Shown piece by piece: positions 8,695-49,721 of a stretch of 62,627 nucleotides of DNA. The notes under the pieces were generated by a model, which searched no databases, was not told the DNA's origin, and saw only the letters and a list, made by a program, of their open reading frames with translations. The DNA is from Candidatus Polarisedimenticolia bacterium (GTDB taxonomy: Bacteria; Acidobacteriota; Polarisedimenticolia; Gp22-AA2). The translations under genes were made by a program, and so were the position numbers. Every line of letters starts with the position of its first letter. Within the stretch, counting starts at the first letter, position 1. Where the stretch lies: positions 1-62,627 of the forward strand of contig DASYUH010000048.1 of NCBI GenBank assembly GCA_036001465.1, read 5' to 3'.

Positions 8695-11600
8695 ATGATC
8701 CGACCGGATTGGTCTCCGAAACGCGCATACCTCGCTATTCCTCTCATGGGCCTTTTGCTGACAGCGTCCTTGACCCGGGTCTCTTCAGGCGATCAAGTTG
8801 CATGGAAGAGCATCGGACGCGGGGGAACGGGCGCTGCTATTTTCGGCGCGGCGATCAGTCCTGTCAACCCGAACATCATCATTCTCGGGTCGGATGTGGG
8901 GGGACTCTTTCGCACGACCGATGGCGGCCTGACGTGGAAGGCAGTCAATAATGCGATCGCGAGTCCGGACACCGTGACCAACTACCGTATCTGGTCCATC
9001 GCGTTCGCCCCGGTCAATGGACTCAATCCGAACGCTCAGATCGTCTACACGGCCTCGCCTCCGCATTTTTATCGCAGCGCGGACGCGGGCGCGACCTGGA
9101 CGCGACGCGCCCTCATGCCTGGTGACGGTGACCCCACCGTAATCGTGGTCGATCCGACCGATCCCAACATCGTCTACGCCGCTGGTAATGGATACACGAC
9201 TGGCACGAGTCGCCTTTGGAAAACCACCGATGGCTTCGCAGGCGCCACGGCGTCTTGTATCGACCCAAACAATTGCAATGTCTCGGTTGGTTCGCTCGTC
9301 ATACGCCCCAGCGACAGAACACAGCTTCTCGCCTGTACCCCGGCCGGCATCTACAAAACCACCGACTCCGCCGCGTCCTGGACCAAAATCGGAGGACCAG
9401 GCGGAATTCCCGCAGGATTGCCACACGACTCTTGTCAACGCATGACCGTCCACGCGAGCGGCGTCGTCTACATGACTCTGGCCACCCCGAACGCCGGCGG
9501 GTCAGGATGGAAGGATCCTACAATGTGGCATGGGGGAGTCTACAAAAGCTCTACCTGGGGAGATTCCTGGACAGCAGCGAACGGTACCGATGGACCGAAC
9601 CTGCTGGTCAATGGACTCGGCCATGACGAAGGACAGTTCGAGTTCCTCGGAGGCAGTGGTCCCGCCGAAGGCTGGAGCTATCTCGGGGACTCTCGCACGG
9701 TCACCAGGGTCTGCGACGCTCCGGAAAATCTTCCCAGGACCGGGTGCGCGATCAAAATGGAGCCCATCGACCTGGGTGACACGAGCTCGCGCGGAGTCTC
9801 GAAGACGATCCCTATCGCGGTCCAGAACCGGAACAAGCTGCACAAGATCTCCGTATGGATGCGAGCACCGAGCGGTCAAGGAGTGACGCTCTATGTCAGG
9901 GCCCACATGCAGAACGCTGCTGGGGCTGGAATCCGGTTCCCTGCGCTTGTCGGTGATTACATCGATCCAATCGCCAGTGTCGTAGTCCATTCGGAATGGC
10001 GGAAGTATCAATCCATCCTTTACGTTCCTGACGATGTCGCCCAGGTCGCCCTTGAAATGTACACTTTTTTCGACGATGGGAAGACCTGGATGGATGAAGT
10101 TTCGATCCAACCCATCGATTCCCTTCCCGATGTCGTGGGAGCAGGAGCGACGCCGACCTTCGCGAACTACGATCTCATCGTGGTCGATCCGGCCGATGTC
10201 AACACGCTCTATGTCGGCACGGCGCCAGGCGGCTTCGCCGACGACAACGAGACTGGGACGAGCGGCATCTGGAAGACGACGGATGCGGGAGCGACATGGC
10301 GGCGCGTCACGCGCAGTCTTTACCATGATAACGTTCTCGACGGGCGGGGAACGGCGCCCGTTTGCGGCGACGGGGTCTGTGGCGGAAGGTGGGAGCACCA
10401 TGCTGCCGGCGGTGTCTGTCCTGACTTCAGCGTGGCTTCCACCTGCGCCGCCGACTGTGCTATCAGCGGCAGCTCATCCTGTTGCGGGAACAACATTTGC
10501 GAGCTGGCGGAAGACGCGGACAACTGCTTCGTGGATTGCCCTCGATACGCCGAGGCGGGACTTCCCTACAATGAATCGCCCCGTCAGTTGAAAGATGGAG
10601 TCACCTCCTACGCCATCAACGGCATCAGCTATGGCGTCGAATCCCTGGCCATCGGGAACGGCGGAACGAATGGAAAGGGAAACGCGGGAAGCCAGACGTT
10701 GTCTACCGGCGGAATCCTGTTGACCGAGGACGGAGGAAATCGCTGGACTGAAATCAGCAACGATCTGACGGTGTCGTCGACGCCTCCGTATGAGGGCTGG
10801 AAATCCCGCGGTGACACGAATTGGGTATTCACCTACCCGGTCGTGACCGATGCCGCGAATCCGCAAAGAGTCTATTACGGAGACAGTGATAACTATCTAA
10901 ATGTCAGCTTCGACGGTGGCGTCCACTTCGTGCTTGAAGGCAAATTTGTCTGGCCGGTGGGTGGAGACGCGGTTACCTCGATGATCCTCGATCCGGTCGA
11001 TCCGAACCACGCCTATTTCGGTGTGTTCAACGGCGATGACATCAACACATTGCCTGACGGTGGGGTCATCGACGGACACCTCGATCCGACCACCAATCGA
11101 TGGACGTGGGCGAAGGTTGGCGTGCAGGCACCCGATCCTGGAGGAACCGATCTCCGGGGCGGCAACGTGAGCCTGGTGCGGCATTCGGATGGCACGCTGT
11201 TCGCGGCTGTCGGCAGTAAGGGGGTGTTTAGGCTGGATGGAAGCACATGGAACAACACGTACTCGGGGTCGAACTGGAAGGATTCTTCCGGTCAGGCCGC
11301 GATTCCAGCCGGCTGGAAGATCATGCGGCTCGCCATCGATGGAGACGACCGGCTTTATGCGGGCGCTGGATACAACCTCGGAGACACGCCGCCTTCCGGA
11401 GAGACCGGCGTCTGGGTCTCCGCTGACAGGGGCGTCAATTGGACCAAGATCAGCAGCGCCGAAATGGATCGTGAGCCGATCACATGGATCACCCCGGCCG
11501 GCAAGGACGGCAGTAACCGGCCGATCGTGCTCGTCGGGACCTGGTTCGCATATCGTTGCGGCTGGGGAGTGCCTGATACGCCGGAGTGTGCCGGGCGGCA

Positions 11601-12468
11601 AGGCGGTGGCCTGTACCGCGGGTGTCTCGGCTGCAGCGCTCCAAACGTGTGGAGCTTTACCCGAAGTCTTATCCAACCACGGGTCACCGGAATCGCGGTG
11701 CATCCGACAAACCCGAGCATCGCCTATGCGTATGCCGGAAGTTTCTTTTATGCGGTCGACGCTCCGGGACTCCAGGCCGGCATCTATAAGAGCGTAGATC
11801 AGGGGCTAACATGGAGCCTGCTCGACAATAACGGCCTGTCGAATCTGAAGTCGGGCCGGCTCTACTTTTCGGCCATTTCCCCGTACCACACGATTTACGC
11901 CTCGACTGTGGGAGGAGGGGTCTACGAGGGCACGATCAATTGCGGGCCTGTGAGCGAGGGGTTCGCTGATGTCGATGGCGACGGCGTTCCCGATTGCGCC
12001 TTCACCAACATCAATCAGCAGATTGCGATGACGACCGGCAGCATCGTGTCCGGCACGTACTCGAGCCTGAGCTGCTCCTCGACTGCGACCTACGAAGTTT
12101 TGAAGGAGCAAACCTCGGGAAGCCAGCGGAAGATGATCAAGGTGTGGAAGTTCGACAACGTCCCGACTGGAAAAGCGTATGACCTGTGGGTCGAGGGCTT
12201 CAAGACGGTCGCCGGCACGCCGTCCGATAATTTCAACTTCAGCCTGACCACGAAGGCCGCGGGGTCCGCCTGTACTAACAGCGATGGAATCGGCCCGACG
12301 CTTCTCACCGTGTCGAAGACGGGCGACGACAACCAGGCGCAGATTGCTAGCGCAGGCACGATCAACAACCCAGTAGTTTGTCTGAGGGTGCAGGACAGCA
12401 TTCAAGGGAGTGACAACAAGTCGGAGACGCTGACACTGGACCGGGTGTGCCTGCGCGCCCTGCCGTGA
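8695..12468 (+). CDS. Large secreted BNR/GH74-like beta-propeller protein with CBM-like and Cys-rich inserts
   Basis: A 1257-residue exported protein: signal peptide with hydrophobic core about 12-26, GGAGGA about 11 bases before the ATG. The first propeller half opens with ISPVNPNIIILGSDVGG LFRTTDGG, strongly like the first blade of GH74 xyloglucanases, where the Asp of the DxGG motif is catalytic. Asp-box motifs recur (RSADAGATW, KTTDSAASW, KTTDAGATW, VSADRGVNW, KSVDQGLTW). A region about 320-480 (EGWSYLGDSRTVTRVCDAP, ISVWMRA) resembles a CBM4/9-type carbohydrate-binding jelly roll. About 565-620 contains two CGDGVC/CGNNICE type cysteine motifs ending in DC, as seen in myxobacterial and acidobacterial surface proteins. 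The C-terminus is a further Cys-containing beta domain. A polysaccharide-degrading role is plausible but unproven. GC is lower than in the window flanks. Confidence 0.75.
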   Translation: MIRPDWSPKRAYLAIPLMGLLLTASLTRVSSGDQVAWKSIGRGGTGAAIFGAAISPVNPNIIILGSDVGGLFRTTDGGLTWKAVNNAIASPDTVTNYRIWSIAFAPVNGLNPNAQIVYTASPPHFYRSADAGATWTRRALMPGDGDPTVIVVDPTDPNIVYAAGNGYTTGTSRLWKTTDGFAGATASCIDPNNCNVSVGSLVIRPSDRTQLLACTPAGIYKTTDSAASWTKIGGPGGIPAGLPHDSCQRMTVHASGVVYMTLATPNAGGSGWKDPTMWHGGVYKSSTWGDSWTAANGTDGPNLLVNGLGHDEGQFEFLGGSGPAEGWSYLGDSRTVTRVCDAPENLPRTGCAIKMEPIDLGDTSSRGVSKTIPIAVQNRNKLHKISVWMRAPSGQGVTLYVRAHMQNAAGAGIRFPALVGDYIDPIASVVVHSEWRKYQSILYVPDDVAQVALEMYTFFDDGKTWMDEVSIQPIDSLPDVVGAGATPTFANYDLIVVDPADVNTLYVGTAPGGFADDNETGTSGIWKTTDAGATWRRVTRSLYHDNVLDGRGTAPVCGDGVCGGRWEHHAAGGVCPDFSVASTCAADCAISGSSSCCGNNICELAEDADNCFVDCPRYAEAGLPYNESPRQLKDGVTSYAINGISYGVESLAIGNGGTNGKGNAGSQTLSTGGILLTEDGGNRWTEISNDLTVSSTPPYEGWKSRGDTNWVFTYPVVTDAANPQRVYYGDSDNYLNVSFDGGVHFVLEGKFVWPVGGDAVTSMILDPVDPNHAYFGVFNGDDINTLPDGGVIDGHLDPTTNRWTWAKVGVQAPDPGGTDLRGGNVSLVRHSDGTLFAAVGSKGVFRLDGSTWNNTYSGSNWKDSSGQAAIPAGWKIMRLAIDGDDRLYAGAGYNLGDTPPSGETGVWVSADRGVNWTKISSAEMDREPITWITPAGKDGSNRPIVLVGTWFAYRCGWGVPDTPECAGRQGGGLYRGCLGCSAPNVWSFTRSLIQPRVTGIAVHPTNPSIAYAYAGSFFYAVDAPGLQAGIYKSVDQGLTWSLLDNNGLSNLKSGRLYFSAISPYHTIYASTVGGGVYEGTINCGPVSEGFADVDGDGVPDCAFTNINQQIAMTTGSIVSGTYSSLSCSSTATYEVLKEQTSGSQRKMIKVWKFDNVPTGKAYDLWVEGFKTVAGTPSDNFNFSLTTKAAGSACTNSDGIGPTLLTVSKTGDDNQAQIASAGTINNPVVCLRVQDSIQGSDNKSETLTLDRVCLRALP

Positions 12469-27317: not shown

Positions 27318-30300
27318 TCAGCGGGTCAGGCTCATGGACAGAAACCGGTCGCTCGGAAGGGAGTCCGACGCGTCCGATCCTTCCTCGTGCTCTTCGCGAC
27401 ACCGCCTGAGCAACCGGGCGACCTGGGGCGCGTAGTCGCCGAGCATGGTGTCGCCCAGACAGCCGCGCGGGCCGAAGTACTCGGTGGTGCGCTCCGCCGA
27501 TGAGCGCCAGAGCCGCGCGGCGGAGGGCAGCCATTCCCGGCTCGGCGCGACCAGGGCGATGCGACCTGTAAAGTGACGCGGTGTGTAGCGGCGCACTGCG
27601 GCGAGGGTGGCGCGCTCGACCCTGGCACGACGCGCCAGCAGCGGGTCGAGCGCAGCGACCGATGCCGCAGCACGTCGCGCCCGAACCTGATCGAGCCGCT
27701 CGGTCGCGTAGCGGAGGCGGTCCCCTGCCGGCCGGGACCACAGCGCGCGGGCGTGCTTGCTGACACGTTCGCACCGCTGGCGGAGGTAGAAGGGTACCTG
27801 GCTCGAGTAGCGGTACCACGTGGGATAAGGGCTTGCCAAAAGCGCGATGAATTGGATGGTTCGACCCGCCTGCAGGAGCCGTCGTCCCAGCTCGAAGGCG
27901 ACCGTGCCGCCGGCGCAGAAGCCGGCGATGATGAGCGGGCCGTGCGGCCGGAATGCGCCGATCTGGTCCGCAAAGTAGGTCGCGAGAGCCTCAATCCGGA
28001 TCAGCGGCGCGCTCCGGCCATCGAGGCCCGGAGGCTCGAGCCCGAAGAACGGCTGGTCGTGCCCGAGGTTGAGAGCCAGCACCCGGTAGCAGAGGATGTC
28101 GCCGTTGTGTCCCGGCACGGCGAACACCGGCGTGCGCGTCCCGCGCGGCTGGAGCGGCACGACCGCGCGCGGCGGCCGACCGGGCGCCTCCGCCGGGCGC
28201 ACGAACGGGAGGACCTCGCTCTTGCGTTCCGTCAGGATCCTCGACAGGTCGTTGATCGTCGGGTTCTCGAACAGCGTGCGGGTCTGCAGCTCCAGTCCGA
28301 ACACGTCGCGAATGCGTGACACGGCCTTGATGGCCAGCAAGGAATGCCCGCCGAGGTCGAAGAAGTCGTCTGTGGGGGCGATGTTCTCCACCTGGAGCAA
28401 TTCCCTCCAGATGGCGACGAGCGTCTGCTCGGTCTCGGTGAGGGGCCGGGCCATGCCGTGGAAGGCCCGGGCGTTTTCGCGGGAGGGAATCGGAAGGGCT
28501 TGTCGATCGACCTTGCCGTTCGCCGTCAGGGGGAGCTTGTCCATCAGGACGAACGACGCAGGGATCATAGGTTGCGGCAATCGCTCCTTGATGTGCTTGC
28601 GCAGCGTCGCGGGCGTCAGGACCTGGCCGTCGGGCGGCGGCAGGGCGCGGACGTGCGCGCCGGGAGGCGGTTCCCGTATGAGCCGCGCACCCCCGGGTGA
28701 CGGCCGAATCGCGTACACGTAGCACAGGGCCGTGTCTCGGAGCAGCGGGTCCTGCTCGACGAGAGCCTCGAACCCGCGCTGCTCCAGCAGTGCCCTGATC
28801 GGCCCCAGGTTCTCGCGATCATCCACTTCGATCACCATCTGGCGGATCCTGGGCCAGTCACGGGGCTCGAGTCCTCTCAAGACATCGAGCTCGCTCTTTT
28901 CAACGTTGATCTTCAGGAGGTCGATGCCTTCGAGGCCCTGTTCGGCGATGACGCTGGACAGGGTGCGCAGCACCGCCGGGACGCTTCGGGCGCGGAGCCG
29001 CTCGTCGATCAGGTCATCGAGTTCAGAGGCCAGCCACTCGCGGATCGCCGGGACGGACTGCTGGTTGAGCACGTACTGCTTGACGACCGCGCGCTCCTTC
29101 GCCGCATCGGCGTAAAACCCCGACAGGAGCGACATTCCCTCGAAGAACGTCAGATCGGCGGTCTTGTTCTCGCTCGACACGCCCACAGGGAGACACGTGA
29201 CGGCGGTCCCCCACGCCTCGGCATTGACTTCGAGACACGCGAATGCCGATGGGTTGGGCTCGAGGGAGATGATCCGGAGGTTTCTGGCCAGGCGGCTGGC
29301 AAAGATCGTGAACAGGCCGATGTTGGCGCCCGCATCCACGACGCAGTCCCCGTCGCGCAGCGCGATGCCGTGCCGGAGATAGGCCTGGCGATCGAAGATT
29401 TCGCCGTAGAGGTAATCCGTCTCGTTCCTGTTGAGGTGGGCCACCGGCGAGCCATCCGGCAGGACGTGCACCGCTTGACAGCCCCACAGCGCCTGCCTCG
29501 CCCGCCGCGGCACGACATACGCGGCCAATTGGCTGCCGCCGGACCCATCCTCCTGCAACCGCACGACGGCCGCCGCCACACCGGGGTGCTCCCGCATCGC
29601 CGCCTCGATCTCGCCGAGCTCGATCCGGTAGCCGTGCACCTTGACCTGATCGTCGATCCGCCCGCAAAACTCGAAGGTGCCGTCCCGCAGGGTTCGCGCC
29701 AGGTCGCCCGTGCGATAGAGCCGTGCGCCGGGGTTCGGGCTGAATGGGTCCGGGATGAATTTCTCGCAGGTCAGATCGGGGCGGTTCAGGTAGCCGCGCG
29801 CCACACCGCGTCCGCCGATGTACAGCTCACCCTTCTCGCCGACGGCGACGGGCTTCCCGCCCTCATCGAGGATGCATGCGCTGCTGTTCGGCAGGGGCGT
29901 CCCCAACGGGAGCGTGCCCGAGAGGGTCCGCGGGAGCAACGCCCCCACTCGATAGGTCATCGCTCCGACCGTGGTCTCCGTGGGGCCGTAGTGGTTGTGG
30001 ATCTCGCATTCAGGGGAAAGGGCGCGCAGCCGCTCGATCCAGTCCAGGCGGGAGGCCTCGCCGCCGAGGATCAGCCGGCGGCGGGGCATGACATCCCGCG
30101 GGTCCCGGCCGGTTTGGAGTGCCGCGAGATGCGACGGCACGATCTTGAGAACGTCGATCCGCTCGCGCCGGAAGTACTCTGCCAGCATCGCCGGGTTCTC
30201 GGCCCGGTCCTGCGAGATGACGTGGAGGCAGCCACCGGTGGCAAGCGCCGGGAAGATCACCGTATTGCCGAGGTCGGCTGCGATGCTCGACACCGTCGCG

Positions 30301-30878
30301 TGGTTCATCCCGGGCTCACATCGCAGCCGATCCGCAACTCCCTGCACGTAACTCACGATGTTGCGATGCTCGATGCATGCGCCCTTTGGGCGGCCTGTGG
30401 AGCCGCTCGTGTACATCACGTAGGCGAGATTTTCGGGCCGGCACGGCGCCTCGGGCTGTATCGGCGGCGCCGCGGCGCTCCAGTCGAAGGAATCCAGGCA
30501 GAGCGCCGGCGGCGCGCCGATCGGGAGGTTTGCGACGAGGTCTTGCTGCGTCAGCGTGCACGCGACGCTCGCGTCCCCGAGCATGAACGCGATCCGCTCC
30601 CTGGGATACCCCGCATCCAGGGGCACGTAGGCTGCACCGGCCTTCAAGATGCCCAGAATGCCCACCACCATCTCCAGCGAGCGCTTGAGGTAGAGCGCGA
30701 CGAGCACCTCGGGCCCGACCCCCAGCCCCCTCAGGTGGCGCGCGACGCGGTCGGCGCGATCGTCGAGCTCCCGATAGCTCATCCCCTGCCCTTCGAACAT
30801 CACGGCCGCCTGGCCGGGAGTCCTCCTGACCTGCGCTTCGATCAGGTGATGCAGGCAGGGCCCTTTCAGAGCGAGCAC
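27318..30878 (-). CDS. Single-module NRPS: adenylation domain interrupted by FkbM methyltransferase, PCP, Cys-type thioesterase
   Basis: A 1186-residue synthetase with no condensation domain. The adenylation domain starts at the N-terminus: YTSGSTGRPKG (156-166), GPTETT (298-303), YRTGDL (388-393) and GRIDDQVKVHGYRIELGEIE (406-425). Between A8 and A9 about 265 residues are inserted (about 463-730) with VVDAGANIGLFT (513-524) and a C-terminal DLLKINVE, an FkbM-type SAM methyltransferase. A9/A10 resume at QPMIPASF and LPLTANGKVD (782-791). PCP: DLGGHSLLA, Ser846. The thioesterase (about 915-1186) has GFCAGG with Cys988 where Ser is usual. By GrsA alignment the specificity residues read D-L-T-K-I-G-H-V-G-K, close to the aspartate code DLTKVGHIGK. 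The start is GTG 30878, overlapping the acyl-CoA dehydrogenase end by 13 bases with GGAGA upstream. Confidence 0.9.
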   Translation of the reverse strand: MLALKGPCLHHLIEAQVRRTPGQAAVMFEGQGMSYRELDDRADRVARHLRGLGVGPEVLVALYLKRSLEMVVGILGILKAGAAYVPLDAGYPRERIAFMLGDASVACTLTQQDLVANLPIGAPPALCLDSFDWSAAAPPIQPEAPCRPENLAYVMYTSGSTGRPKGACIEHRNIVSYVQGVADRLRCEPGMNHATVSSIAADLGNTVIFPALATGGCLHVISQDRAENPAMLAEYFRRERIDVLKIVPSHLAALQTGRDPRDVMPRRRLILGGEASRLDWIERLRALSPECEIHNHYGPTETTVGAMTYRVGALLPRTLSGTLPLGTPLPNSSACILDEGGKPVAVGEKGELYIGGRGVARGYLNRPDLTCEKFIPDPFSPNPGARLYRTGDLARTLRDGTFEFCGRIDDQVKVHGYRIELGEIEAAMREHPGVAAAVVRLQEDGSGGSQLAAYVVPRRARQALWGCQAVHVLPDGSPVAHLNRNETDYLYGEIFDRQAYLRHGIALRDGDCVVDAGANIGLFTIFASRLARNLRIISLEPNPSAFACLEVNAEAWGTAVTCLPVGVSSENKTADLTFFEGMSLLSGFYADAAKERAVVKQYVLNQQSVPAIREWLASELDDLIDERLRARSVPAVLRTLSSVIAEQGLEGIDLLKINVEKSELDVLRGLEPRDWPRIRQMVIEVDDRENLGPIRALLEQRGFEALVEQDPLLRDTALCYVYAIRPSPGGARLIREPPPGAHVRALPPPDGQVLTPATLRKHIKERLPQPMIPASFVLMDKLPLTANGKVDRQALPIPSRENARAFHGMARPLTETEQTLVAIWRELLQVENIAPTDDFFDLGGHSLLAIKAVSRIRDVFGLELQTRTLFENPTINDLSRILTERKSEVLPFVRPAEAPGRPPRAVVPLQPRGTRTPVFAVPGHNGDILCYRVLALNLGHDQPFFGLEPPGLDGRSAPLIRIEALATYFADQIGAFRPHGPLIIAGFCAGGTVAFELGRRLLQAGRTIQFIALLASPYPTWYRYSSQVPFYLRQRCERVSKHARALWSRPAGDRLRYATERLDQVRARRAAASVAALDPLLARRARVERATLAAVRRYTPRHFTGRIALVAPSREWLPSAARLWRSSAERTTEYFGPRGCLGDTMLGDYAPQVARLLRRCREEHEEGSDASDSLPSDRFLSMSLTR

Positions 30879-32017
30879 GCGATCATCTCCTTCATGACTT
30901 CATTGGCCCCGGCGAAGATGCGCAGCACGCGAGCGTCGGCCCACATGCGGGCTATGGGATATTCGGTCATATAGCCGTAGCCGCCGTGCAGCTGCACGCA
31001 TTCGTCGACGATCCGGAACTGGCGGTCGGTGAGCCAGTATTTCGCCATGGCCGTCGTGATGTCGTCGAGCCCGCCGGAGATGAACCGCTCGATGCAGTGG
31101 TCGAGGAAAACGCGACCGATGTGCGCCTCCGTTTTGCATTCGGCGAGCTTGAAGCGCGTGTTCTGAAGCTCGATCAGCGGCTTGCCGAATGCCATGCGCT
31201 CTTTCACGTGCCGAGTCGTGAGTGTGACCGCCTGTTCCGCGGTGGCGACTGCGCTCACGGCGACGGTGAGCCGCTCATACGACAACCGCTCCAGCATCTG
31301 GGAGAGCCCGCGTCCTTCCGAGGAGCCGAGCAGGTTCGCGCACGGGACGCGCACGTCGTCGAAGAAGAGCTCGCACGTGTCCTGCCCATGCATGCCGACC
31401 TTTTCAAGCGGTCGCCCCGCTCGGTATCCGGAAAGATCCTTCGTTTCGACGAGGATGAGCGAGATGCCCTTCATGGCAGGCGCTCGCGTGTCGGTCTTCG
31501 CGGCGAGGCAGACGAGGCCGGCGAGCCGGCCGTTGGTGATGAACGTTTTCGACCCGTTGATGACATAGTGATCGCCGTCGCGACGCGCGGTGGTCTGGAT
31601 GCCCTGGAGGTCCGAGCCCGCGGCGGGTTCGGTCATCGCGATCGCGCCGACCAGCTCGCCGCGCGCCATCGAGGGGAGCCAGCGGCGCCGCTGCTTCTCG
31701 CTTCCGTACGCGAGGATGTAGTGCGCCACGAGGCTCTGGACGCCGGCGCCGAACTGGACGACCGCGCGAGCGAGCTCTTCCGACACGACGGCCTGATGGG
31801 CGAAGGTTCCTCCTCCTCCGCCGTATTCCTCCGGGATGTCGGGCAGCAGGATGCCGGTCGCGCCGGCCGACGTCCAGTCTCCGGGATCGGGGCCCCGTTG
31901 CCCGCGCCAACAGTCCTGGCGAGGCAGGAATTCCGTCTCGATGAAGCGCTGCGCCGTCTGCCGGAACATCAGGATGTCGTCGGTCATCCAAGGGGACCGG
32001 TAGGTGCCGGAGGTCAT
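30866..32017 (-). CDS. Acyl-CoA dehydrogenase-family flavoprotein coupled to the NRPS
   Basis: A 383-residue FAD-dependent dehydrogenase of normal length. Features: AMTEPAAGSDLQGIQTTA (flavin-binding), KTFITNG, RMAFGKPLIELQ, LHGGYGYMTEYPIARMWADA and RIFAGANEVMKEMI. The MCAD catalytic glutamate position (YEG) is Ala here, but SYERLTVA supplies a Glu at the place used by isovaleryl- and long-chain acyl-CoA dehydrogenases. AGGTGA precedes ATG 32017. It is upstream of and overlaps the NRPS, so the two proteins are probably made together. In pyrrole pathways (PltE, RedW) relatives oxidise a PCP-bound prolyl thioester, so an aminoacyl-S-PCP desaturase role is plausible here. Ordinary fatty or branched acyl-CoA oxidation is the alternative. 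Confidence 0.9.
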   Translation of the reverse strand: MTSGTYRSPWMTDDILMFRQTAQRFIETEFLPRQDCWRGQRGPDPGDWTSAGATGILLPDIPEEYGGGGGTFAHQAVVSEELARAVVQFGAGVQSLVAHYILAYGSEKQRRRWLPSMARGELVGAIAMTEPAAGSDLQGIQTTARRDGDHYVINGSKTFITNGRLAGLVCLAAKTDTRAPAMKGISLILVETKDLSGYRAGRPLEKVGMHGQDTCELFFDDVRVPCANLLGSSEGRGLSQMLERLSYERLTVAVSAVATAEQAVTLTTRHVKERMAFGKPLIELQNTRFKLAECKTEAHIGRVFLDHCIERFISGGLDDITTAMAKYWLTDRQFRIVDECVQLHGGYGYMTEYPIARMWADARVLRIFAGANEVMKEMIACSL

Positions 32018-32665: not shown

Positions 32666-34207
32666 TTGGGCCCGGCAGCCGGAGAAAACTCCCGCCCCAT
32701 CGAGCAGGCCTGCTTCTGGCTGGCCGGCCGGAAACGGGAATCCGATCCTCCCCTGATCGGCCGGCGCGAGGCGGACATCGCCATCATCGGAGCCGGCCTG
32801 ACCGGGCTGTGGACGGCGATCTTCCTCAAGCGCTTCGACCCGGAGCAGGACATCGTGGTCGTGGAGCAGGGGGACGCGGCGTTCGGCGCCAGCGGCCGGA
32901 ACGCCGGGATGCTCGGCGAGGGGATCGACCACTCGCACGAGCTGGCCATCGCCCACTTCGGGCGGCGGGAGGCGGTCCGGATGGCCGGCCTAGGGGTCGA
33001 GAACATCCGCTCGATGCTGACGTTCCTCGAAGAGCGCGGCATCGACTGCGACCTCGAGCGCACGGGACAGCTGCACGTCGCCCTGCTGCCGTCGCAGGTC
33101 GAGGAGCTGCGCGAGTCGGCCGAGGTGGCGCGGCAGCTCGGCCTGACGCACTTCCGCTTCCTCGACGCCGCGGAGACCCGCGCCGAGCTGAACTGCGCCC
33201 GCTTCCAGGGGGCCCTGCTCAATCCGAATTCCTGCATTCTCGATCCGGTGAAGCTGGTGGAGGGTCTCAAGCGCGAGGCGGTCCGGTCCGGCGTCGTCTT
33301 CCACGAGCGGACCCGCGTGACCGCCATCGAGCGGTCGAACGGCGGGATGCGGGTGCGGTCGGTCCATGTTCCCGGCGCCGGGGGACCTCCCGCGGCCCGC
33401 ATGGAAGCGACCGGGGTCGCGGCCGAGCGCCTGCAGGCCGCGGCCGCGCGATTGAAGGCGGCTGCGGCCCGCGCCCAGGCCTCGTCCGCCCCCCCGCCCG
33501 GCGCCGAGGGGGAGCTTCTGGCGCGACGCCTGATCCTGGCGACCAACGCCTACACGCACCACCTGTTCCCACGGCTCCTGAGCCGCTTCATCCCGCTCTA
33601 CGACTACATCCTGGTGAGCGAGCCCCTGAGCGGGGACCAGATGGCGCGGATCGGCTGGCGCCAGAGGCAGGGGGTGACCGACACACGGTCCTTCTTCAAG
33701 TACTACCGCCTCACTGCCGACAACCGGATCCTGTGGGGGACCAGCGAGGCGGCGTACTACTCGGGGAACCGCGTCGACGCGGGCTGCGACCACTCCGAGC
33801 GCCATTACTCCGAGCTGCGCGACAGCTTCCGCCGCCACTTCCCGCAGCTCGGCGACCTGCCGTTCCCCTACGCCTGGGGCGGGCCCATCTGCTCGACGAC
33901 GCGCTTCACGCCGTTCTTCGGCGCCGCCGAGGGGGGGCGCGTCCTCTACGGCCTGGGCTACACCGGCCACGGGCTCGGCAACACGCACCTGGCCGGACAG
34001 ATCCTCGCCCACATGGCGCTGGAGCGAAAAAGCACCCTGCTCGATCTCGCCCTGGTTCGCAAGCACCCGTTCCCGTACCCGCCCGAGCCGCTGCGCACCC
34101 TGGCGGTCAAGGCCGTCACGAAGGCGCTGCGCCGCGTCGACGCGGGGGGCCGTCCGGGCCTCCTCCTGCGCATCCTCGACCTGATGGGGATAGGACTCTC
34201 GAGCTGA
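32666..34207 (+). CDS. FAD-dependent amine/D-amino-acid oxidase-type oxidoreductase (DAO family)
   Basis: A 513-residue flavoprotein. It has the Rossmann dinucleotide motif IAIIGAGLTGLWTAIFLKRF (about 38-57), ending in an acidic VVVEQGD, the AFGASGRNAGML segment typical of the DAO/gamma-glutamylputrescine-oxidase group, and the C-terminal GLGYTGHGLGNTHLAGQILA FAD motif. It would oxidise a C-N bond to an imine with release of peroxide or electron transfer. The start is TTG 32666 with GGAGGAGG about 9 bases upstream. About 45 residues in the substrate-domain region (33373-33510) are an Ala/Pro-rich insert with repeated LQAAAAR/LKAAAAR units. It is divergent from the NRPS/dehydrogenase operon and could act on an amino acid linked to it. 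Confidence 0.85.
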   Translation: MGPAAGENSRPIEQACFWLAGRKRESDPPLIGRREADIAIIGAGLTGLWTAIFLKRFDPEQDIVVVEQGDAAFGASGRNAGMLGEGIDHSHELAIAHFGRREAVRMAGLGVENIRSMLTFLEERGIDCDLERTGQLHVALLPSQVEELRESAEVARQLGLTHFRFLDAAETRAELNCARFQGALLNPNSCILDPVKLVEGLKREAVRSGVVFHERTRVTAIERSNGGMRVRSVHVPGAGGPPAARMEATGVAAERLQAAAARLKAAAARAQASSAPPPGAEGELLARRLILATNAYTHHLFPRLLSRFIPLYDYILVSEPLSGDQMARIGWRQRQGVTDTRSFFKYYRLTADNRILWGTSEAAYYSGNRVDAGCDHSERHYSELRDSFRRHFPQLGDLPFPYAWGGPICSTTRFTPFFGAAEGGRVLYGLGYTGHGLGNTHLAGQILAHMALERKSTLLDLALVRKHPFPYPPEPLRTLAVKAVTKALRRVDAGGRPGLLLRILDLMGIGLSS

Positions 34208-38888: not shown

Positions 38889-41800
38889 ATGCTGGCCCGT
38901 TGCCGCCGGTCCGTTCGTTTGATCATGGTGTTGCTGGCAGTCCTGATCGTCGCCGCCCCCGCTCTCGGCCTGGCGGCCGATGAGCCCGACAAGCCGTCCA
39001 AGGGCCCGGAGGAGTTCAAAGGGATGAAGTTCCGGCTCGTCGGACCCGCCGCGGGCGGCCGGGTGTCGCGGGTCGCCGGCGTCCCGGGCGACCCGCTCGT
39101 CTACTACGCGGCGAGCGCCTCGGGGGGAGTCTGGAAATCGGAGGACGGCGGCATCGCCTGGAAGCCGATCTTCGACGATCAGCCGATCTCGTCCATCGGG
39201 TCGATTGCGGTCGCGCCCAGCAACCCGGGCGTGGTCTATGTCGGCTCGGGGGAGGCCAACATCCGCGGCAACGTCGCGGCCGGCAACGGCATCTACAAGT
39301 CGACGGACGCCGGCAAGACCTGGACGCACGTCTGGACGCAGGAGGGGCAGATCGGCACGATGATCGTCCACCCGTCCAATCCCGACATCGCCTTCGCCGC
39401 GGTCCTCGGGCACGCGTTCGGCCCGAACCCCGAGCGCGGCGTCTACCGGACGAAGGACGGCGGCAAGACCTGGCAGCAGGTCCTCAAGAAGGACGCGGAC
39501 ACGGGCGCCTCCGACGTCTGCTTCGACGTGTCGAACCCGAACATCCTGTTCGCCGGGTTCTGGCAGGCGCGCCGCCGGCCATGGCAGATGACCAGCGGCG
39601 GCCCCGGGAGCGGGCTCTACACGTCGCGCGACGGCGGGGACACGTGGAAGCAGTTGACCGGGCACGGCCTGCCGGAGGGGATCTGGGGGAAGGTGGGGGT
39701 GGCGGTGGCCCCCTCCGACGGGCGGAGGGTCTACGCGCTCATCGAAGCGGAGAAGGGCGGCCTGTTCCGCTCGGACGACGGCGGCGACTCGTGGTCGCTG
39801 GCGACCGATCACCATGCCGTCACGCAGCGTCCCTGGTACTACATGACGATGACGGTCGATCCGTCGAACGCCGACGTCATCTGGTTCCCGCAGGTCCCCA
39901 TGCTGCGCTCGATCGACGGCGGCCGGACGATCAAGAGGGTGAGGGGGGCGCACCACGGCGACCATCACGATGTCTGGATCGATCCGAAGAACCCGAAGCG
40001 GATCATCAACGGCAACGACGGGGGCGTGGACCTGTCCTGGGACGGCGGAGAGACCTGGTACGCGCCGCCGCTGCCGCTCGGGCAGTTCTACCACGTGACC
40101 GCCGACAGCTCGGTGCCGTACCGCGTCTCGGGGGCGATGCAGGACCTGGGCACCGCCTCCTGTCCGAGCAACAGCCTGCACGGCGGCGGCATCAGGAACG
40201 GCGACTGCCATGACGTCGGGGGGGGCGAGGCCGGGTACACGGCGCACGATCCCTCCGACCCGAACATCGTCTGGGCGGGGGAGTACTTCGGGATCATCAC
40301 GCGATACGACCACCGCACCGGCATGACGCGCAACATCTCCGCCTACCCGGAAAACTGGTCGGGCCACGGCGCCGAAGACAACCGCTACCGCTTCCAGTGG
40401 ACCGCCCCGATCCACATCTCGCCGCACGACCCGAAGACCGTGTACCACGCGTCCCAGGTCCTCTTCAGGACGACCGACGGCGGCCAGTCCTGGACGGCGA
40501 TCAGCCCCGACCTGACGCGCAACGACAAGTCGAAGCAGAAATGGTCGGGCGGGCCGATCACGGGGGACAACACCGGCGTCGAGTGGTACGACACGATCTT
40601 CGCGGTGGCCGAGTCGCCGAAGGAGAAGGGGCTCATCTGGGCGGGGAGCGACGACGGGCTGGTGCACGTGACGCGCGACGCCGGGGCGCACTGGACCAAC
40701 GTCACGCCGGCCATCAAGGGGCTTCCGGAGTGGGGCACGGTCAGCGTCATCGAGCCGTCGCCGCACGACGCCGCCACGGCGTACGTCGTGGTGGACGCCC
40801 ACCGGCTGGATGACATGCGCCCGTACATCTGGAAGACGTCCGACTACGGCAAGTCCTGGAAGAGCCTGGCGGCGGGGCTGCCCAAGGACGTCTATCTCCA
40901 TGCCGTGCGGGAGGACCCGAAGCGCCGCGGGCAGCTCTACCTCGGGACCGAGCGGGGCGTGTCGTTCTCGCGCGACGACGGAGGCACCTGGACGGCGCTC
41001 GGATTGAACCTGCCGACCGTCGCCGTGCACGACCTCGTCGTGAAGGACAACGATCTGGTGGTGGGGACCCACGGCCGATCGATGTGGATTCTCGACGACC
41101 TGACGCCCCTGCGCGACTGGTCGAAGGAGATCGCCGAGCGGCCGGCGCACCTGTTCCCGCCGCAGCCTTCGACGAGGTGGGAGTCCCGGTCCTCGTTCGA
41201 CGGAGAGGACGTCGGGGAGAACCCGCCCTACGGCGCCGTCCTCAGCTACTACCTGAAGAAGAAGGCGGAGGGGGACCTGAAGCTGGAGATCCTCGACGCC
41301 GGCGGCGCCGTCGTCCGCACGTTCTCCAGCAAGAAGGACGAGCCGGAATACGAGAAGGACGATCCCGACGGCGGCCGGGACGACGAGAAGCCGGTCCTGT
41401 CGACCGAGACGGGCGTGCAGCGGATCGCCTGGGACCTCGAGTACGGCCCGGCGACGAGGATCAAGAAGGCGAAGACCGAGGGGAATCCGGAGGCCGCGCC
41501 GCGGGCTGTCCCGGACGTCTACACCGCCCGTCTGACCGTGGGGGACAAGACGATGACGGCGGCGATCGAGATCCTCCCCGATCCCCGCCTGAAGATCCCG
41601 GCCGGCGAAATCGCCGAGCAGGTGAAGTTCGCCCGCCAGGTCCAGGAGCAGGTGACCCGGCTGGCCGGCCTCGTGGCGCGAATCCGATCGGTGCGGGACC
41701 AGCTCAAGGTCAAGTCGGAGGCCCTGGATGGCAGCGCTCCCGCCTCCGACTGGACCAAGGCGGCCGCCGACCTGATCACCCGGTGCGACACCCTGGAGGG

Positions 41801-42077
41801 GAAGCTCCATCAGCCGAAGGCCCAGGTCGAGTACGACATCCTCGCCAAGGGGGCCCGCCTCTACAGCCGGCTCAGTCCGCTTCTCGGGTTCGCCGCGGAC
41901 GGGACCGGGGCCCCGACGAAGGGGATGCGTGAGGTCTTCACCGATCAGGTCCGCGAGCTGGACGCGCTCGAAGGGGAGTGGAACGCCCTCGTCTCGGGCG
42001 ATCTCGCGGCGCTCGGCCGCAAGGCGAGAGAGGCACATCTCGAACCGGTGGTGGTCCCGGTCACCGCGGCGCGCTGA
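38889..42077 (+). CDS. Secreted BNR/sortilin-like propeller protein
   Basis: A 1062-residue exported protein. Signal peptide: SVRLIMVLLAVLIVAAPALGLAA split around residue 20 with cleavage near ALGLAA. The bulk (about 40-720) is a chain of BNR/Asp-box repeats such as KSEDGGIAW, KSTDAGKTW, RTKDGGKTW, TSRDGGDTW, RSDDGGDSW, RTTDGGQSW and SRDDGGTW, of the sortilin/VPS10-like ten-bladed type annotated as WD40/YVTN/BNR-like glycosyl-hydrolase homologs in Acidobacteriota. The C-terminal about 300 residues contain an acidic linker (KKDEPEYEKDDPDGGRDDEK), an Ig-like segment and a helical coiled-coil tail. Function is not established; no catalytic residues were identified. GAGGAG precedes the ATG. Confidence 0.83.
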   Translation: MLARCRRSVRLIMVLLAVLIVAAPALGLAADEPDKPSKGPEEFKGMKFRLVGPAAGGRVSRVAGVPGDPLVYYAASASGGVWKSEDGGIAWKPIFDDQPISSIGSIAVAPSNPGVVYVGSGEANIRGNVAAGNGIYKSTDAGKTWTHVWTQEGQIGTMIVHPSNPDIAFAAVLGHAFGPNPERGVYRTKDGGKTWQQVLKKDADTGASDVCFDVSNPNILFAGFWQARRRPWQMTSGGPGSGLYTSRDGGDTWKQLTGHGLPEGIWGKVGVAVAPSDGRRVYALIEAEKGGLFRSDDGGDSWSLATDHHAVTQRPWYYMTMTVDPSNADVIWFPQVPMLRSIDGGRTIKRVRGAHHGDHHDVWIDPKNPKRIINGNDGGVDLSWDGGETWYAPPLPLGQFYHVTADSSVPYRVSGAMQDLGTASCPSNSLHGGGIRNGDCHDVGGGEAGYTAHDPSDPNIVWAGEYFGIITRYDHRTGMTRNISAYPENWSGHGAEDNRYRFQWTAPIHISPHDPKTVYHASQVLFRTTDGGQSWTAISPDLTRNDKSKQKWSGGPITGDNTGVEWYDTIFAVAESPKEKGLIWAGSDDGLVHVTRDAGAHWTNVTPAIKGLPEWGTVSVIEPSPHDAATAYVVVDAHRLDDMRPYIWKTSDYGKSWKSLAAGLPKDVYLHAVREDPKRRGQLYLGTERGVSFSRDDGGTWTALGLNLPTVAVHDLVVKDNDLVVGTHGRSMWILDDLTPLRDWSKEIAERPAHLFPPQPSTRWESRSSFDGEDVGENPPYGAVLSYYLKKKAEGDLKLEILDAGGAVVRTFSSKKDEPEYEKDDPDGGRDDEKPVLSTETGVQRIAWDLEYGPATRIKKAKTEGNPEAAPRAVPDVYTARLTVGDKTMTAAIEILPDPRLKIPAGEIAEQVKFARQVQEQVTRLAGLVARIRSVRDQLKVKSEALDGSAPASDWTKAAADLITRCDTLEGKLHQPKAQVEYDILAKGARLYSRLSPLLGFAADGTGAPTKGMREVFTDQVRELDALEGEWNALVSGDLAALGRKAREAHLEPVVVPVTAAR

Positions 42078-46066: not shown

Positions 46067-48721
46067 TCAGGGAGCGGGACGCAGCCGGCGGACGGCGGCC
46101 TCGATCTGCGCCGTGGCCACGGCCGCATCGGTGCCCGGATCGATCGCGAGCGGCGGACCGATGACCAGGCGGGTCCTGCCGAAGCGCGGCCAGTAGCGCC
46201 CGTCGGGCAGGACCTGGGCCGTCCCCTCGATGAACGCCGGCACGACGGGCGCGCGCAGCTCGCGGGCGAAGATGCCGATCCCCTTGCGGAAGGGCTCCAT
46301 GTCGGGCCCGGGAACGTGCCGTCCCTCCGGAAAGATGAGGATCGAGAAGCCCTCGTCCATGAGCTCGCCGGCGTACGCGAGACTGGCGCGGAGGCCGGCC
46401 GTCTCCGGCAGCGGCCAGGCGTTGAAGAAGAACTCCACGAGGCGCACCTGGGTCCATTCCTTCATGTGGCGGGCCGGCCCGCCCTCCGCTTCGCCGTAGA
46501 ACACGCGGTGGTACCGCGTCGTCATGCCGGGGGCGATCCGGCCGCGGAGCGCCCGGGGGAGCGTCGCCTTGAAGAGGCCGGTATCCATGTAGCTGCGGTG
46601 GTTTGCCACGAACAGGCAGGGCGGCCGCGCATCCCGCAGATGCTCGAGCCCGGCGATCCGCGGCCGCGCGTAGAAGCGGATGAACGGGATCATCAGGCAT
46701 TCCTCGATCGCGCGACGGGCGAGGCGCACCGGCAGGAGGCGCGTCCAGCGCGGCATCCTCAGGGAGCCCCGGCTCTCGAGGGCCAGGAGGTCCGTCGGGG
46801 CCGGAGTGGCGTCCGGCGCCCCGCCCGGTCCCGGGAGGCGGGCCGGCGGGGGCGCGCCGACGCCTGGCCGCGACGTGCCGCCGGCGGAGACGGCCATGGC
46901 GGCCAGCCGCTCCAGATCGAGGACGGTGGCTTCTCCTAGGCGTCCTTCGGGGAGACGTGCGCCGAACTCCTCCTCGAAGGCGGCCGCCAGCTCCACGAGG
47001 TCGAGGCTGGCGAAGCCGAGCCCCTCGACGAGGCGCGTGTCGTCCCGCAGGGTTTCGGGCGCGACGCGCGCCAGGGAGGCGAGCAGGCGCCGCACCGCCG
47101 AGAACCCCGCCGCCGTGCCGCCCGGCCCGGCGGCGCCGTCGCGCTCGAGGAGGACGATGCGATCGCGCATGAGACCCCGGCGGACCTTGCCGGTGGCGGT
47201 GCGCGGGAAATCGTCCTCCGGCCAGACGGTGTGGCCGCGGACGCGCTGCTTCGGCAGGAGCCGCTCGTTGGCCGCGGTGACCGCCGCCTGCGGGTCGGCG
47301 CCGCGCTCCATCAGGAGCGCCGCGTGGACCCGCTCGCCGCGCGCGAGCGGCAGGCCCAGGACGGACACGCCGCGCACGCCCGGGGCGCCGGCGAAGGCCG
47401 CCTCGACGTCGCCTGGATGCACGTTCTCCCCTTCGGGGGTGACGATGACCTCCTTCAGCCGACCGCGGATCGTCAGGCGCCCGCGCGCGTCGAATGCGCC
47501 GACGTCGCCGGTCTTGAGCCAGCCCTCACCGTCCGCCTCGCGCCCCTCTCCCAGGTAGCCGGGTGTGACGTTCGGCCCGCGAACCAGGATTTCCCCCTCG
47601 GGCCCGAGCTTCACCTCCTGCACCGCGAGCGGGCGGCCGACGCTGCCGGCGCGCCGGTCGAACGGGCTCGACACCGAGATGATCGGGGCGGTCTCGGTCA
47701 GCCCGTACCCCTGCACCACCAGGTAGCCGCTGCGCCGCCAGAAGAGGTCCACCTCCTCCGGGAGCCGGGCGCCCCCCGAGACGATGATCCGGAGCCGCCA
47801 GCCGAGCAGCCGCTGGATCGGCCAGAGGAGCGGCGCCTGGAGATAGAACGGCCAGTCGGCCACGCGCTGCTGGCGCCTCTCGCATGCTTCGAGCCTGCCG
47901 GCGGCGTGGAGCGCGCGACGCACCTCGGCCCCCAGGAGGTCGAGCAGCCGCGGCACGGTGAACAGGCCCCAGGCGGAGAAGCGCCGCGAGGCCTCGATGA
48001 CCTCCAGGGGTCGCGGGGGGACCAGCACGATGGTGAGCCCCATGCTCAGGCCGAGGAACACGTTCATCGCCTGGCCGAACATGTGCGACAGGGGGAGGGT
48101 GGAGAGGAAGCGCAGGGCTCCGACCGGCCGGATGAGTGGCGCCCACTTGAGGTAGCCACGCTCGATCGGCGCGAAATCGGAGACCAGGTTCCCGTGGGTC
48201 AGGATCACGCCCCGGGGATCGCCGGTCGTGCCGGACGTGAACATCACGAAGGCGCGGTCGTCGGGGCCGGGGTCGGGCGCGGGACGGGCCGGAGCTCCTC
48301 GCGCGGGAGCCGGGGCGCTCCGCGCCCCCCACGAACCTGTTTCGATCCGCGTGACGCCGTCCGGTGGCGCGAGCTGCGCGGGGGCGACGAGAAGGCGCGC
48401 GCCCGCCTTGGCCGCGATCCGGGCGCGCAGGTCGCCGGGGGAATCGGGATCGAGGGGGACGGCGATCCCTCCCGCATGAAGCGTCCCGAAGAGCGCCTCC
48501 ACCCAGTCGGCGCCGTCGGGCCCCTGGATGAGGACCGGGTCTCCCGGCTTCAGCCCGGCGGCGCCGAGCGCCTCCGCGCAGGCGAGGGAGCGCCGGTGCA
48601 GCTCGCCGTAGGTGCGGCGGCGCCAGCGGACGCCGTCCTTCCAGAGGTAGGCTTCGCGGCCGCCGAAACGCGGCAGATCCTCGATGTACGTCAGGAGATT
48701 GCGGCGCGCGGACGGCGTCAT
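46067..48721 (-). CDS. AMP-ligase / acyl-carrier protein / PlsC acyltransferase fusion
   Basis: An 884-residue three-domain protein. Residues about 1-520: an adenylate-forming acyl ligase with FTSGTTGDPRGV (161-172), VQGYGLTETAPI (336-347), the KTGDV segment (403-407), RLKEVIV and the catalytic PRTATGKVRRG (506-516). Residues about 545-610: a carrier-protein domain with LGFASLDLVEL, Ser572 as phosphopantetheine site. Residues about 650-884: a PlsC-type acyltransferase with FVANHRSYMD (H708, D713) and FPEGRHVPG. It could charge a fatty acid onto its own carrier and transfer it to a lysophospholipid. E. coli Aas has the acyltransferase first and lacks the carrier. The ATG at 48721 has only a weak ribosome site. 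It diverges from the threonine dehydratase gene across 49 bases. Confidence 0.87.
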   Translation of the reverse strand: MTPSARRNLLTYIEDLPRFGGREAYLWKDGVRWRRRTYGELHRRSLACAEALGAAGLKPGDPVLIQGPDGADWVEALFGTLHAGGIAVPLDPDSPGDLRARIAAKAGARLLVAPAQLAPPDGVTRIETGSWGARSAPAPARGAPARPAPDPGPDDRAFVMFTSGTTGDPRGVILTHGNLVSDFAPIERGYLKWAPLIRPVGALRFLSTLPLSHMFGQAMNVFLGLSMGLTIVLVPPRPLEVIEASRRFSAWGLFTVPRLLDLLGAEVRRALHAAGRLEACERRQQRVADWPFYLQAPLLWPIQRLLGWRLRIIVSGGARLPEEVDLFWRRSGYLVVQGYGLTETAPIISVSSPFDRRAGSVGRPLAVQEVKLGPEGEILVRGPNVTPGYLGEGREADGEGWLKTGDVGAFDARGRLTIRGRLKEVIVTPEGENVHPGDVEAAFAGAPGVRGVSVLGLPLARGERVHAALLMERGADPQAAVTAANERLLPKQRVRGHTVWPEDDFPRTATGKVRRGLMRDRIVLLERDGAAGPGGTAAGFSAVRRLLASLARVAPETLRDDTRLVEGLGFASLDLVELAAAFEEEFGARLPEGRLGEATVLDLERLAAMAVSAGGTSRPGVGAPPPARLPGPGGAPDATPAPTDLLALESRGSLRMPRWTRLLPVRLARRAIEECLMIPFIRFYARPRIAGLEHLRDARPPCLFVANHRSYMDTGLFKATLPRALRGRIAPGMTTRYHRVFYGEAEGGPARHMKEWTQVRLVEFFFNAWPLPETAGLRASLAYAGELMDEGFSILIFPEGRHVPGPDMEPFRKGIGIFARELRAPVVPAFIEGTAQVLPDGRYWPRFGRTRLVIGPPLAIDPGTDAAVATAQIEAAVRRLRPAP

Positions 48722-48770
48722 CAGTGTTTCATGATACTTTGAATCCTCCCGGCCGGAGGCGGCGCGCTCC

Positions 48771-49721
48771 ATGGACCTCAAGACCGAAATCACCGCGGCC
48801 GAAACGCGGATCCGCCCGTACGTGCGCGAGACCCCGGTCGACGAGTCCCCCGCGCTCGGCCAGGCCGCGGGGGCGCGCGTCCTGCTGAAGATGGAGCACC
48901 TCCAGCTCACCGGCTCGTTCAAGCTGCGGGGGGCGATGAACCGGCTCCTGTCCCTGACGCCGGACGAGAAGGCGGAGGGGATCGTGACCGCCTCCTCCGG
49001 CAACCACGGCGCGGCGGTGGCGTACGGCCTGAAGGCCCTCGGCTGCCCCGGCGTCATCTTCGTCCCGGAGAACGCCTCGCCGGCGAAGGTGGCCAACATC
49101 CGAGCCTACGGCGCCGAGGTGCGCACGCACGCCACAGACTCGGGGATCACGGAGATGTTCGCGCGCCGCCACGCGCAGGAAACCGCCAGGGTCTACGTCT
49201 CGCCGTACAACGATCCTCTGGTCGTGGCGGGGCAGGGGACGATCGGCGCGGAGCTGGCCCGGCAGGTGGACCGCATCGATGCCTTGTTCGTGGCGCTCGG
49301 CGGCGGCGGGCTGATCTCCGGAATCGCGGGGTATCTCAAGTCGGGCGGCGCCCCCGTCGAGGTCATCGCCTGCTCGCCGGAGAACTCCGCCGTCATGCAC
49401 CACTCGGTCGCGGCCGGGCGGATCCTCGAGATGGAGTCGAAGCCGACCCTCTCCGACGGCACGGCCGGGGCGGTCGAGCCGGGGGCGATCACGCTCGATC
49501 TCTGCCGCCGCTTCGTCGATCGCTACGTCCTCGTCTCGGAAACCGAAATCAGGGACGCGATGCGCCTGGTCATCGACCGGCACCACACCCTGATCGAGGG
49601 GGCCGCCGGTGTGGCGGTCGCCGGCTTCCTCAAGGAGAAGGAGCGGTTCGCCGGCAGGAGCGTCGTCATCGTTCTGTGCGGTGCGAACATCTCCCGAGAC
49701 CGTCTGAAGGACGTCCTCTAG
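48771..49721 (+). CDS. Threonine dehydratase-type PLP enzyme
   Basis: A 316-residue fold-type II PLP enzyme. Features: PLP lysine in LTGSFKLRGAMN (about 47-58), SSGNHGAAVAYGLK, the glycine-rich phosphate loop ALGGGGLISGIA and VLCGANIS near the C-terminus. Length and motif order match the short threonine/serine ammonia-lyases lacking the ACT regulatory domain. It deaminates L-threonine (or L-serine) to the 2-keto acid, for isoleucine synthesis or catabolism. A serine racemase-like role is the alternative. It stands alone, convergent with the TMEM175-like gene. Confidence 0.9.
   Translation: MDLKTEITAAETRIRPYVRETPVDESPALGQAAGARVLLKMEHLQLTGSFKLRGAMNRLLSLTPDEKAEGIVTASSGNHGAAVAYGLKALGCPGVIFVPENASPAKVANIRAYGAEVRTHATDSGITEMFARRHAQETARVYVSPYNDPLVVAGQGTIGAELARQVDRIDALFVALGGGGLISGIAGYLKSGGAPVEVIACSPENSAVMHHSVAAGRILEMESKPTLSDGTAGAVEPGAITLDLCRRFVDRYVLVSETEIRDAMRLVIDRHHTLIEGAAGVAVAGFLKEKERFAGRSVVIVLCGANISRDRLKDVL

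Follow-up and report, generated by a model that had tools for sequence, protein, structure and literature searches.

The window analysed here, a stretch of 62,627 nucleotides, is an entire contig from the 4.58-Mb genome of a Candidatus Polarisedimenticolia bacterium (Acidobacteriota), and Rfam and tRNA scans across it returned no matches. Two genes on its minus strand form the unit of interest: the first (30866..32017, 383 aa) encodes an acyl-CoA dehydrogenase (ACAD) with the N, M and C domains of the Pfam ACAD families, and the second (27318..30878, 1186 aa, GTG start) a nonribosomal peptide synthetase (NRPS) with the organisation A(Asp)[FkbM]-PCP-TE, Asp being the predicted substrate. The coordinates, the strand and the A-FkbM-PCP-TE order given in an earlier note on this DNA all proved correct by Pfam domain and motif positions, and so did its description of the dehydrogenase gene as overlapping, the GTG start of the NRPS gene lying 13 nt inside the 3' end of the ACAD gene. 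To the left of the NRPS (15.5-27 kb) there is an EPS-type cluster which is convergent with it and displays a weaker codon-position GC signal, and to the right of the ACAD a divergent gene (32666-34207) encodes an FAD oxidoreductase weakly related to curated families. Elsewhere in the window, AMP-binding, PP-binding and acyltransferase (PF01553) domains are combined in one protein (46067-49099, minus strand), which provides a second carrier protein; a PALP enzyme gene (48771-49721) lies on the opposite strand, and long BNR/Sortilin-Vps10 or PKD repeat proteins are encoded at 8695-12468 and 38889-42077 (plus strand) and at 3542-5920 (minus strand).

All the domains of the NRPS are read on the minus strand. 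The N-terminal part of the A domain (29499..30860, aa ~7-460; Pfam AMP-binding at aa 14-364) is separated from the C-terminal A9-A10 subdomain (28512..28629, aa ~750-789; AMP-binding_C, PF13193, at aa 750-789) by an FkbM methyltransferase (28630..29498, aa ~461-749), an insertion bounded by the A8 (RIELGEIE, aa 418) and A10 (NGKVDR, aa 787) motifs. Membership of the insert in the FkbM family is indicated by its PF05050 score (aa 515-704, 48.7 bits against a gathering cut-off of 22.7), and alignment of the inserts revealed intact catalytic motifs, among them DAGANIG at aa 515. A PCP follows (28236..28427, aa 818-881, PF00550) with the motif LGGHSLLA. The A domain is an interrupted one of the A8/A9-methyltransferase type, like KtzH, TioS and ColG, which likewise carry a methyltransferase between A8 and A9; the curated list of interrupted A domains contains N-, O- and S-methylating inserts only and names neither FkbM nor Asp (PMC11355689). 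FkbM inserts also occur within A domains with Glu-like, Thr-like and Asn-like codes (L040-L044, L056, L057, L060 and L061), and the FkbM-split A domain is thus a wider class. In the window, the specificity residues D, L, T, K, I, G, H, V and G are found at aa 202-305, the tenth being the Lys of NGKVDR. The near-identical code DLTKVGHVGK has been listed for OH-Asp, with Asp as the prediction (PMC10391617), and has been assigned mostly to Asp and sometimes to Asn (PMC12283262). Therefore, the wording "near the aspartate code" used previously was too cautious: the code is of the aspartate type, from which Asp is predicted as the substrate.

To establish how far this arrangement extends, an alignment of three FkbM inserts was searched against one genome per species, which yielded 29 loci. 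The closest inserts, 60-69% identical, belong to MAGs of Gemmatimonadota, Rhodocyclaceae, Acidobacteriota (Terriglobia, gp6) and Chloroflexota, whereas the two relatives from the class and order of the window itself fall below these, with 45-49% insert identity. The same ACAD adjoins an A(Asp)[FkbM]-PCP unit in ten loci (L023, L024, L025, L027-L032 and L051); in the L033 genome the ACAD is followed by just the start of an A domain before the contig ends. Eight further loci share the 13-nt overlap (L023-L025, L027-L031), and a PPTase gene stands immediately upstream of the ACAD in four (L023, L024, L027, L032). A close ACAD is encoded in 12 out of 12 genomes with a close module and in none of the nine (E<=1e-90) with more distant FkbM-split A domains; FkbM-split Asp modules without a close ACAD are those of G009, G018, L034-L037 and L039. 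The cassettes of L027, from a MAG titled Gemmatimonadetes, and L031, from Acidobacteria gp6, are near-identical, their ACADs too, probably reflecting one mis-binned contig, and should therefore count once. The two-gene cassette is real, conserved and present across several phyla, mostly in soil bacteria.

What follows the loading unit varies. A C-A-PCP module with a code that we read as Gly type comes next in L023, L024, L025, L026, L028 and L051, and in L025 one further module has what we take to be a Thr-like code. The window, L027, L030 and L031 are devoid of the Gly-type module. The earlier designation of the NRPS as condensation-less holds for the window, which has no C module, but describes a lineage variant, because relatives often continue with C-A(Gly)-PCP.

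The dehydrogenase itself preserves its catalytic motifs and the three-domain ACAD fold with a Glu of the xERL type, Glu248 in YERL, which is kept in all aligned relatives covering that position and which, by comparison with LCAD/IVD-type enzymes, is the probable catalytic base. In a maximum-likelihood tree the 19 cassette ACADs, drawn from genomes with either the Asp[FkbM] unit or an Asn-type unit, form one group with 97/97 support, separate from 10 other ACADs, which include the paralogs of the window genome. The ACAD of L138 falls just outside the cassette group; its locus, judged by eye, is one of beta-oxidation. The cassette group is linked to carrier modules that load Asp or Asn. The enzyme could in principle be an ordinary fatty-acid dehydrogenase lying beside the NRPS by coincidence, given that it belongs to the general acyl-CoA dehydrogenase family and that its top PDB match is the generic ACAD 2pg0 (357 bits), but its repeated association with Asp/Asn modules across several phyla, the supported ACAD group and the mere 37% identity to the closest paralog inside its own genome render this very unlikely. 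A chance neighbourhood of the two genes was considered and discarded on the co-occurrence across genomes and the tree grouping. The same two lines of evidence argue for a dedicated enzyme and so favour the action on a PCP-bound amino acid that had been proposed for it. The parallel with PltE drawn at the same time stands as a mechanistic likeness, since in PltE, RedW and PigA an ACAD-fold flavoenzyme encoded beside an A domain and a carrier oxidises a carrier-bound amino acid, and the site of the catalytic Glu, placed by analogy with known ACADs, is common to both; it does not stand as family membership. Assignment to the PltE-like prolyl-PCP dehydrogenases was rejected on a score of 192.7 bits with the RedW/PltE NCBIfam equivalog model, whose cut-off is 650, and unlike those enzymes the window ACAD sits on another branch, its partner has an Asp/Asn and not a Pro code, and a methyltransferase lies within the A domain. 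BolQ of the bolagladin pathway is also an ACAD desaturating an Asp-derived carrier-bound acyl group, to dehydro-beta-alanine; in that system, however, Asp is attached to a free ACP through its beta-carboxyl and a PLP enzyme decarboxylates it, steps with no counterpart at the window (PMC7756342).

Within the ACAD-linked set, the 13 close FkbM-split A domains, that of the window among them, all have the code DLTK[IV]GHVG. On the other hand, a phylum-wide ACAD search retrieved relatives beside A-PCP didomains with the Asn code DLTK[IV]GEVG and no insert (L132-134, L136 and L137). A sixth Asn-code unit, L119, is a second cassette in the L027 genome, consisting of ACAD, an A domain with a WbuX-type insert, PCP and a TE of the GH[NT]GD type described below. 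The insert of L119 (7491-10412), again between A8 and A9, resembles the WbuX/TIGR03573 PP-loop amidotransferases, with an intact SGGKDS motif and 121.9 bits against TIGR03573 (N-acetyl sugar amidotransferase), below the curated cut-off of 203; this insert type is absent from the curated interrupted-A-domain list (PMC11355689). FkbM accordingly accompanies Asp in 13/13 and Asn in 0/6 members of the set, the Asn-code units being five plain A-PCP didomains and the one with the WbuX-type insert (Fisher p 3.7e-5, a value that ignores shared ancestry). Outside the ACAD-linked set, L060 combines FkbM with an Asn-like code. Since FkbM goes with Asp and never with Asn in this set, desaturation of carrier-bound Asp or Asn by the ACAD probably takes place once the side chain has been rendered neutral, either as amide or as methyl ester.

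We therefore favour, with a probability of roughly 0.55, a reading of the two genes as a starter cassette making a modified (dehydro-)aspartate. As judged from its code, the A domain would activate L-Asp and load it onto its own PCP; the FkbM domain within the A domain would O-methylate the carrier-bound Asp on its side-chain carboxylate; and the co-translated ACAD would strip the alpha and beta hydrogens to leave PCP-bound 2,3-dehydroaspartate methyl ester. The acyl group would then be condensed onto a Gly module in many relatives, and in the window pass straight to the fused Cys TE-fold domain, whose rewired site may release or transfer it. Both Asp loading and the role of FkbM as a side-chain tailoring domain gain strength from the comparison of relatives, in co-occurrence and in the ACAD tree. 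Several observations point against the starter cassette: the TE has no recognisable triad, the code DLTKVGHVGK has also been listed for OH-Asp (PMC10391617), in the L026 genome the ACAD is on a separate contig with no A domain nearby, and the FkbM-split Asp modules lacking a close ACAD, the Asn-like L060 and the N-methylating FkbM enzyme EreM described below count on the same side.

An unlikely variant is that FkbM places its methyl on the amino group of carrier-bound Asp, or on a beta-hydroxy group, and that the ACAD acts afterwards, on N-methyl- or beta-methoxy-Asp or on a later peptide. EreM, a member of the FkbM family, is an amide/backbone N-methyltransferase (PMC9259500), which makes N-methylation possible for the window FkbM, and both N- and O-methylating domains are known as a8/a9 inserts (PMC11355689); the shared use of DLTKVGHVGK by beta-OH-Asp (PMC10391617) would fit a beta-methoxy product. 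N-methylation, however, would not predict that FkbM is confined to Asp in the ACAD-linked set, and the beta-hydroxy version has to contend with the lack of a hydroxylase among the loci examined.

The last domain of the NRPS, of TE fold (27321..28169, minus strand), scores 70.4 bits with the Thioesterase family (PF00975, aa 917-1024), with an alpha/beta hydrolase fold, and MAFFT places Cys988, in GFCAGG, at the Ser/Cys nucleophile of other TEs and not outside the elbow, in agreement with the earlier identification of Cys as the nucleophile residue. Aligned with it, about 25 other TEs of the phylum have as a rule a small-residue oxyanion loop, Ser, a position-I Asp and a terminal His. In contrast, the family of the window TE has a conserved GH[NT]GD as its oxyanion loop, a Cys, one of Ala, Gly and Thr at position I, and a His-less GPxx[CS]xxxxML, a loss of the other catalytic residues that the earlier note did not mention; in the window these are GHNGD at aa 923, Cys988, Ala1015 and GPRGCLGDTML at aa 1136, the latter replacing PGxHxxM, so that the terminal His is missing, and no conserved position-II acid was found in a seven-sequence TE alignment. 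Relatives encode the GH[NT]GD TE mostly as a separate protein starting with a TubC_N docking domain (PF18563, E about 1e-19), whereas the window protein carries the TE joined to the module. The PCP-TE junction (28170..28220, minus strand), TERKSEVLPFVR, resembles by eye the last TubC docking helix and may be its remnant, i.e. a fusion scar. In an unrelated NRPS-PKS locus, a TubC-docked GHNGD TE (L165:8967-10097) keeps the position-I Asp, from which the loss of catalytic residues looks stepwise. A second kind of Cys-TE, in L026 and L149, also keeps the position-I Asp and has [DN]PGGIF at the terminal-His site.

The Cys had been taken as a possible sign of a TE that closes a strained ring, as the obafluorin (beta-lactone) and sulfazecin (beta-lactam) enzymes do. 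Like SulM, ObiF1 and AB3403, the window TE is an alpha/beta hydrolase whose nucleophile elbow holds a Cys, the expected product is small, and the chain of ObiF1 matches the AF2 model of the TE (pLDDT 75) with a Z of 19.0. Nevertheless, SulM and ObiF require Asp at position II, after beta 7, and His after beta 8 (PMC11298585), and the window TE differs from SulM, ObiF1 and AB3403 in having the GH[NT]GD loop and neither a position-I Asp, a conserved position-II acid nor a terminal His. Moreover, the model resembles NRPS/PKS TEs generally, many of which match it as well as or better than ObiF1 (NocB, Z 22.4; AB3403, 20.8), and no beta-hydroxyl or sulfamate donor is known. The sulfazecin/obafluorin-type assignment was hence abandoned, and strained-ring closure appears extremely improbable. 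The Cys-TE was also dismissed as a sign of such a product on the absent triad and on the occurrence of Cys in L051, L026, L149 and AB3403; in L051 it is accompanied by intact Asp and His.

It is tempting to speculate, although we consider it quite unlikely, that this TE family, with its rewired site (Cys, no terminal His, and a His in the GH[NT]GD oxyanion loop), acts by transfer and not by hydrolysis, handing the dehydro-aspartyl group to an acceptor that is an amine or a sugar. A broader, still unlikely proposal is that the cassette feeds a polysaccharide, with a dehydro-Asp/Asn acyl group placed onto an amino sugar of the adjacent EPS and the odd TE serving as acyltransferase. In the window, 381 bp separate the NRPS from a glycosyltransferase gene, and genes resembling those for Wzx, Wzy, Wzz and sugar transferases lie within 15 kb; L027 carries GT2 and Wzz-like/kinase genes; L132-134 belong to a locus with genes for a Wzc/Wzz-like kinase, UDP-sugar dehydrogenase, epimerase and glycosyltransferase; and a hexapeptide-repeat (Hexapep) transferase gene follows the L136 unit, with a similar one after L137 by eye. 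But the EPS genes of the window, being convergent with the NRPS, are not co-transcribed with it and have the weaker GC3 signal, sugar genes are missing among the neighbours examined of L023, L024, L032 and L051, and in several relatives the modules assemble an Asp-Gly peptide. A link between the cassette and the polysaccharide genes of the window may exist.

A literature search found no route of direct carrier-bound oxidation to alpha,beta-dehydro-Asp/Asn with a capped side chain, and a second one, on a parallel with AmbE/methoxyvinylglycine, gave nothing bearing on that parallel. If the starter-cassette reading is true, alpha,beta-dehydro-Asp/Asn would be made by direct oxidation of the carrier-bound amino acid, its side chain being capped inside the A domain. 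The comparison also exposes a TE family without the usual triad and provides a testable rule, namely that Asp-code units have FkbM and Asn-code units lack it, and the ACAD group makes it simple to mine genomes for all members of the class.
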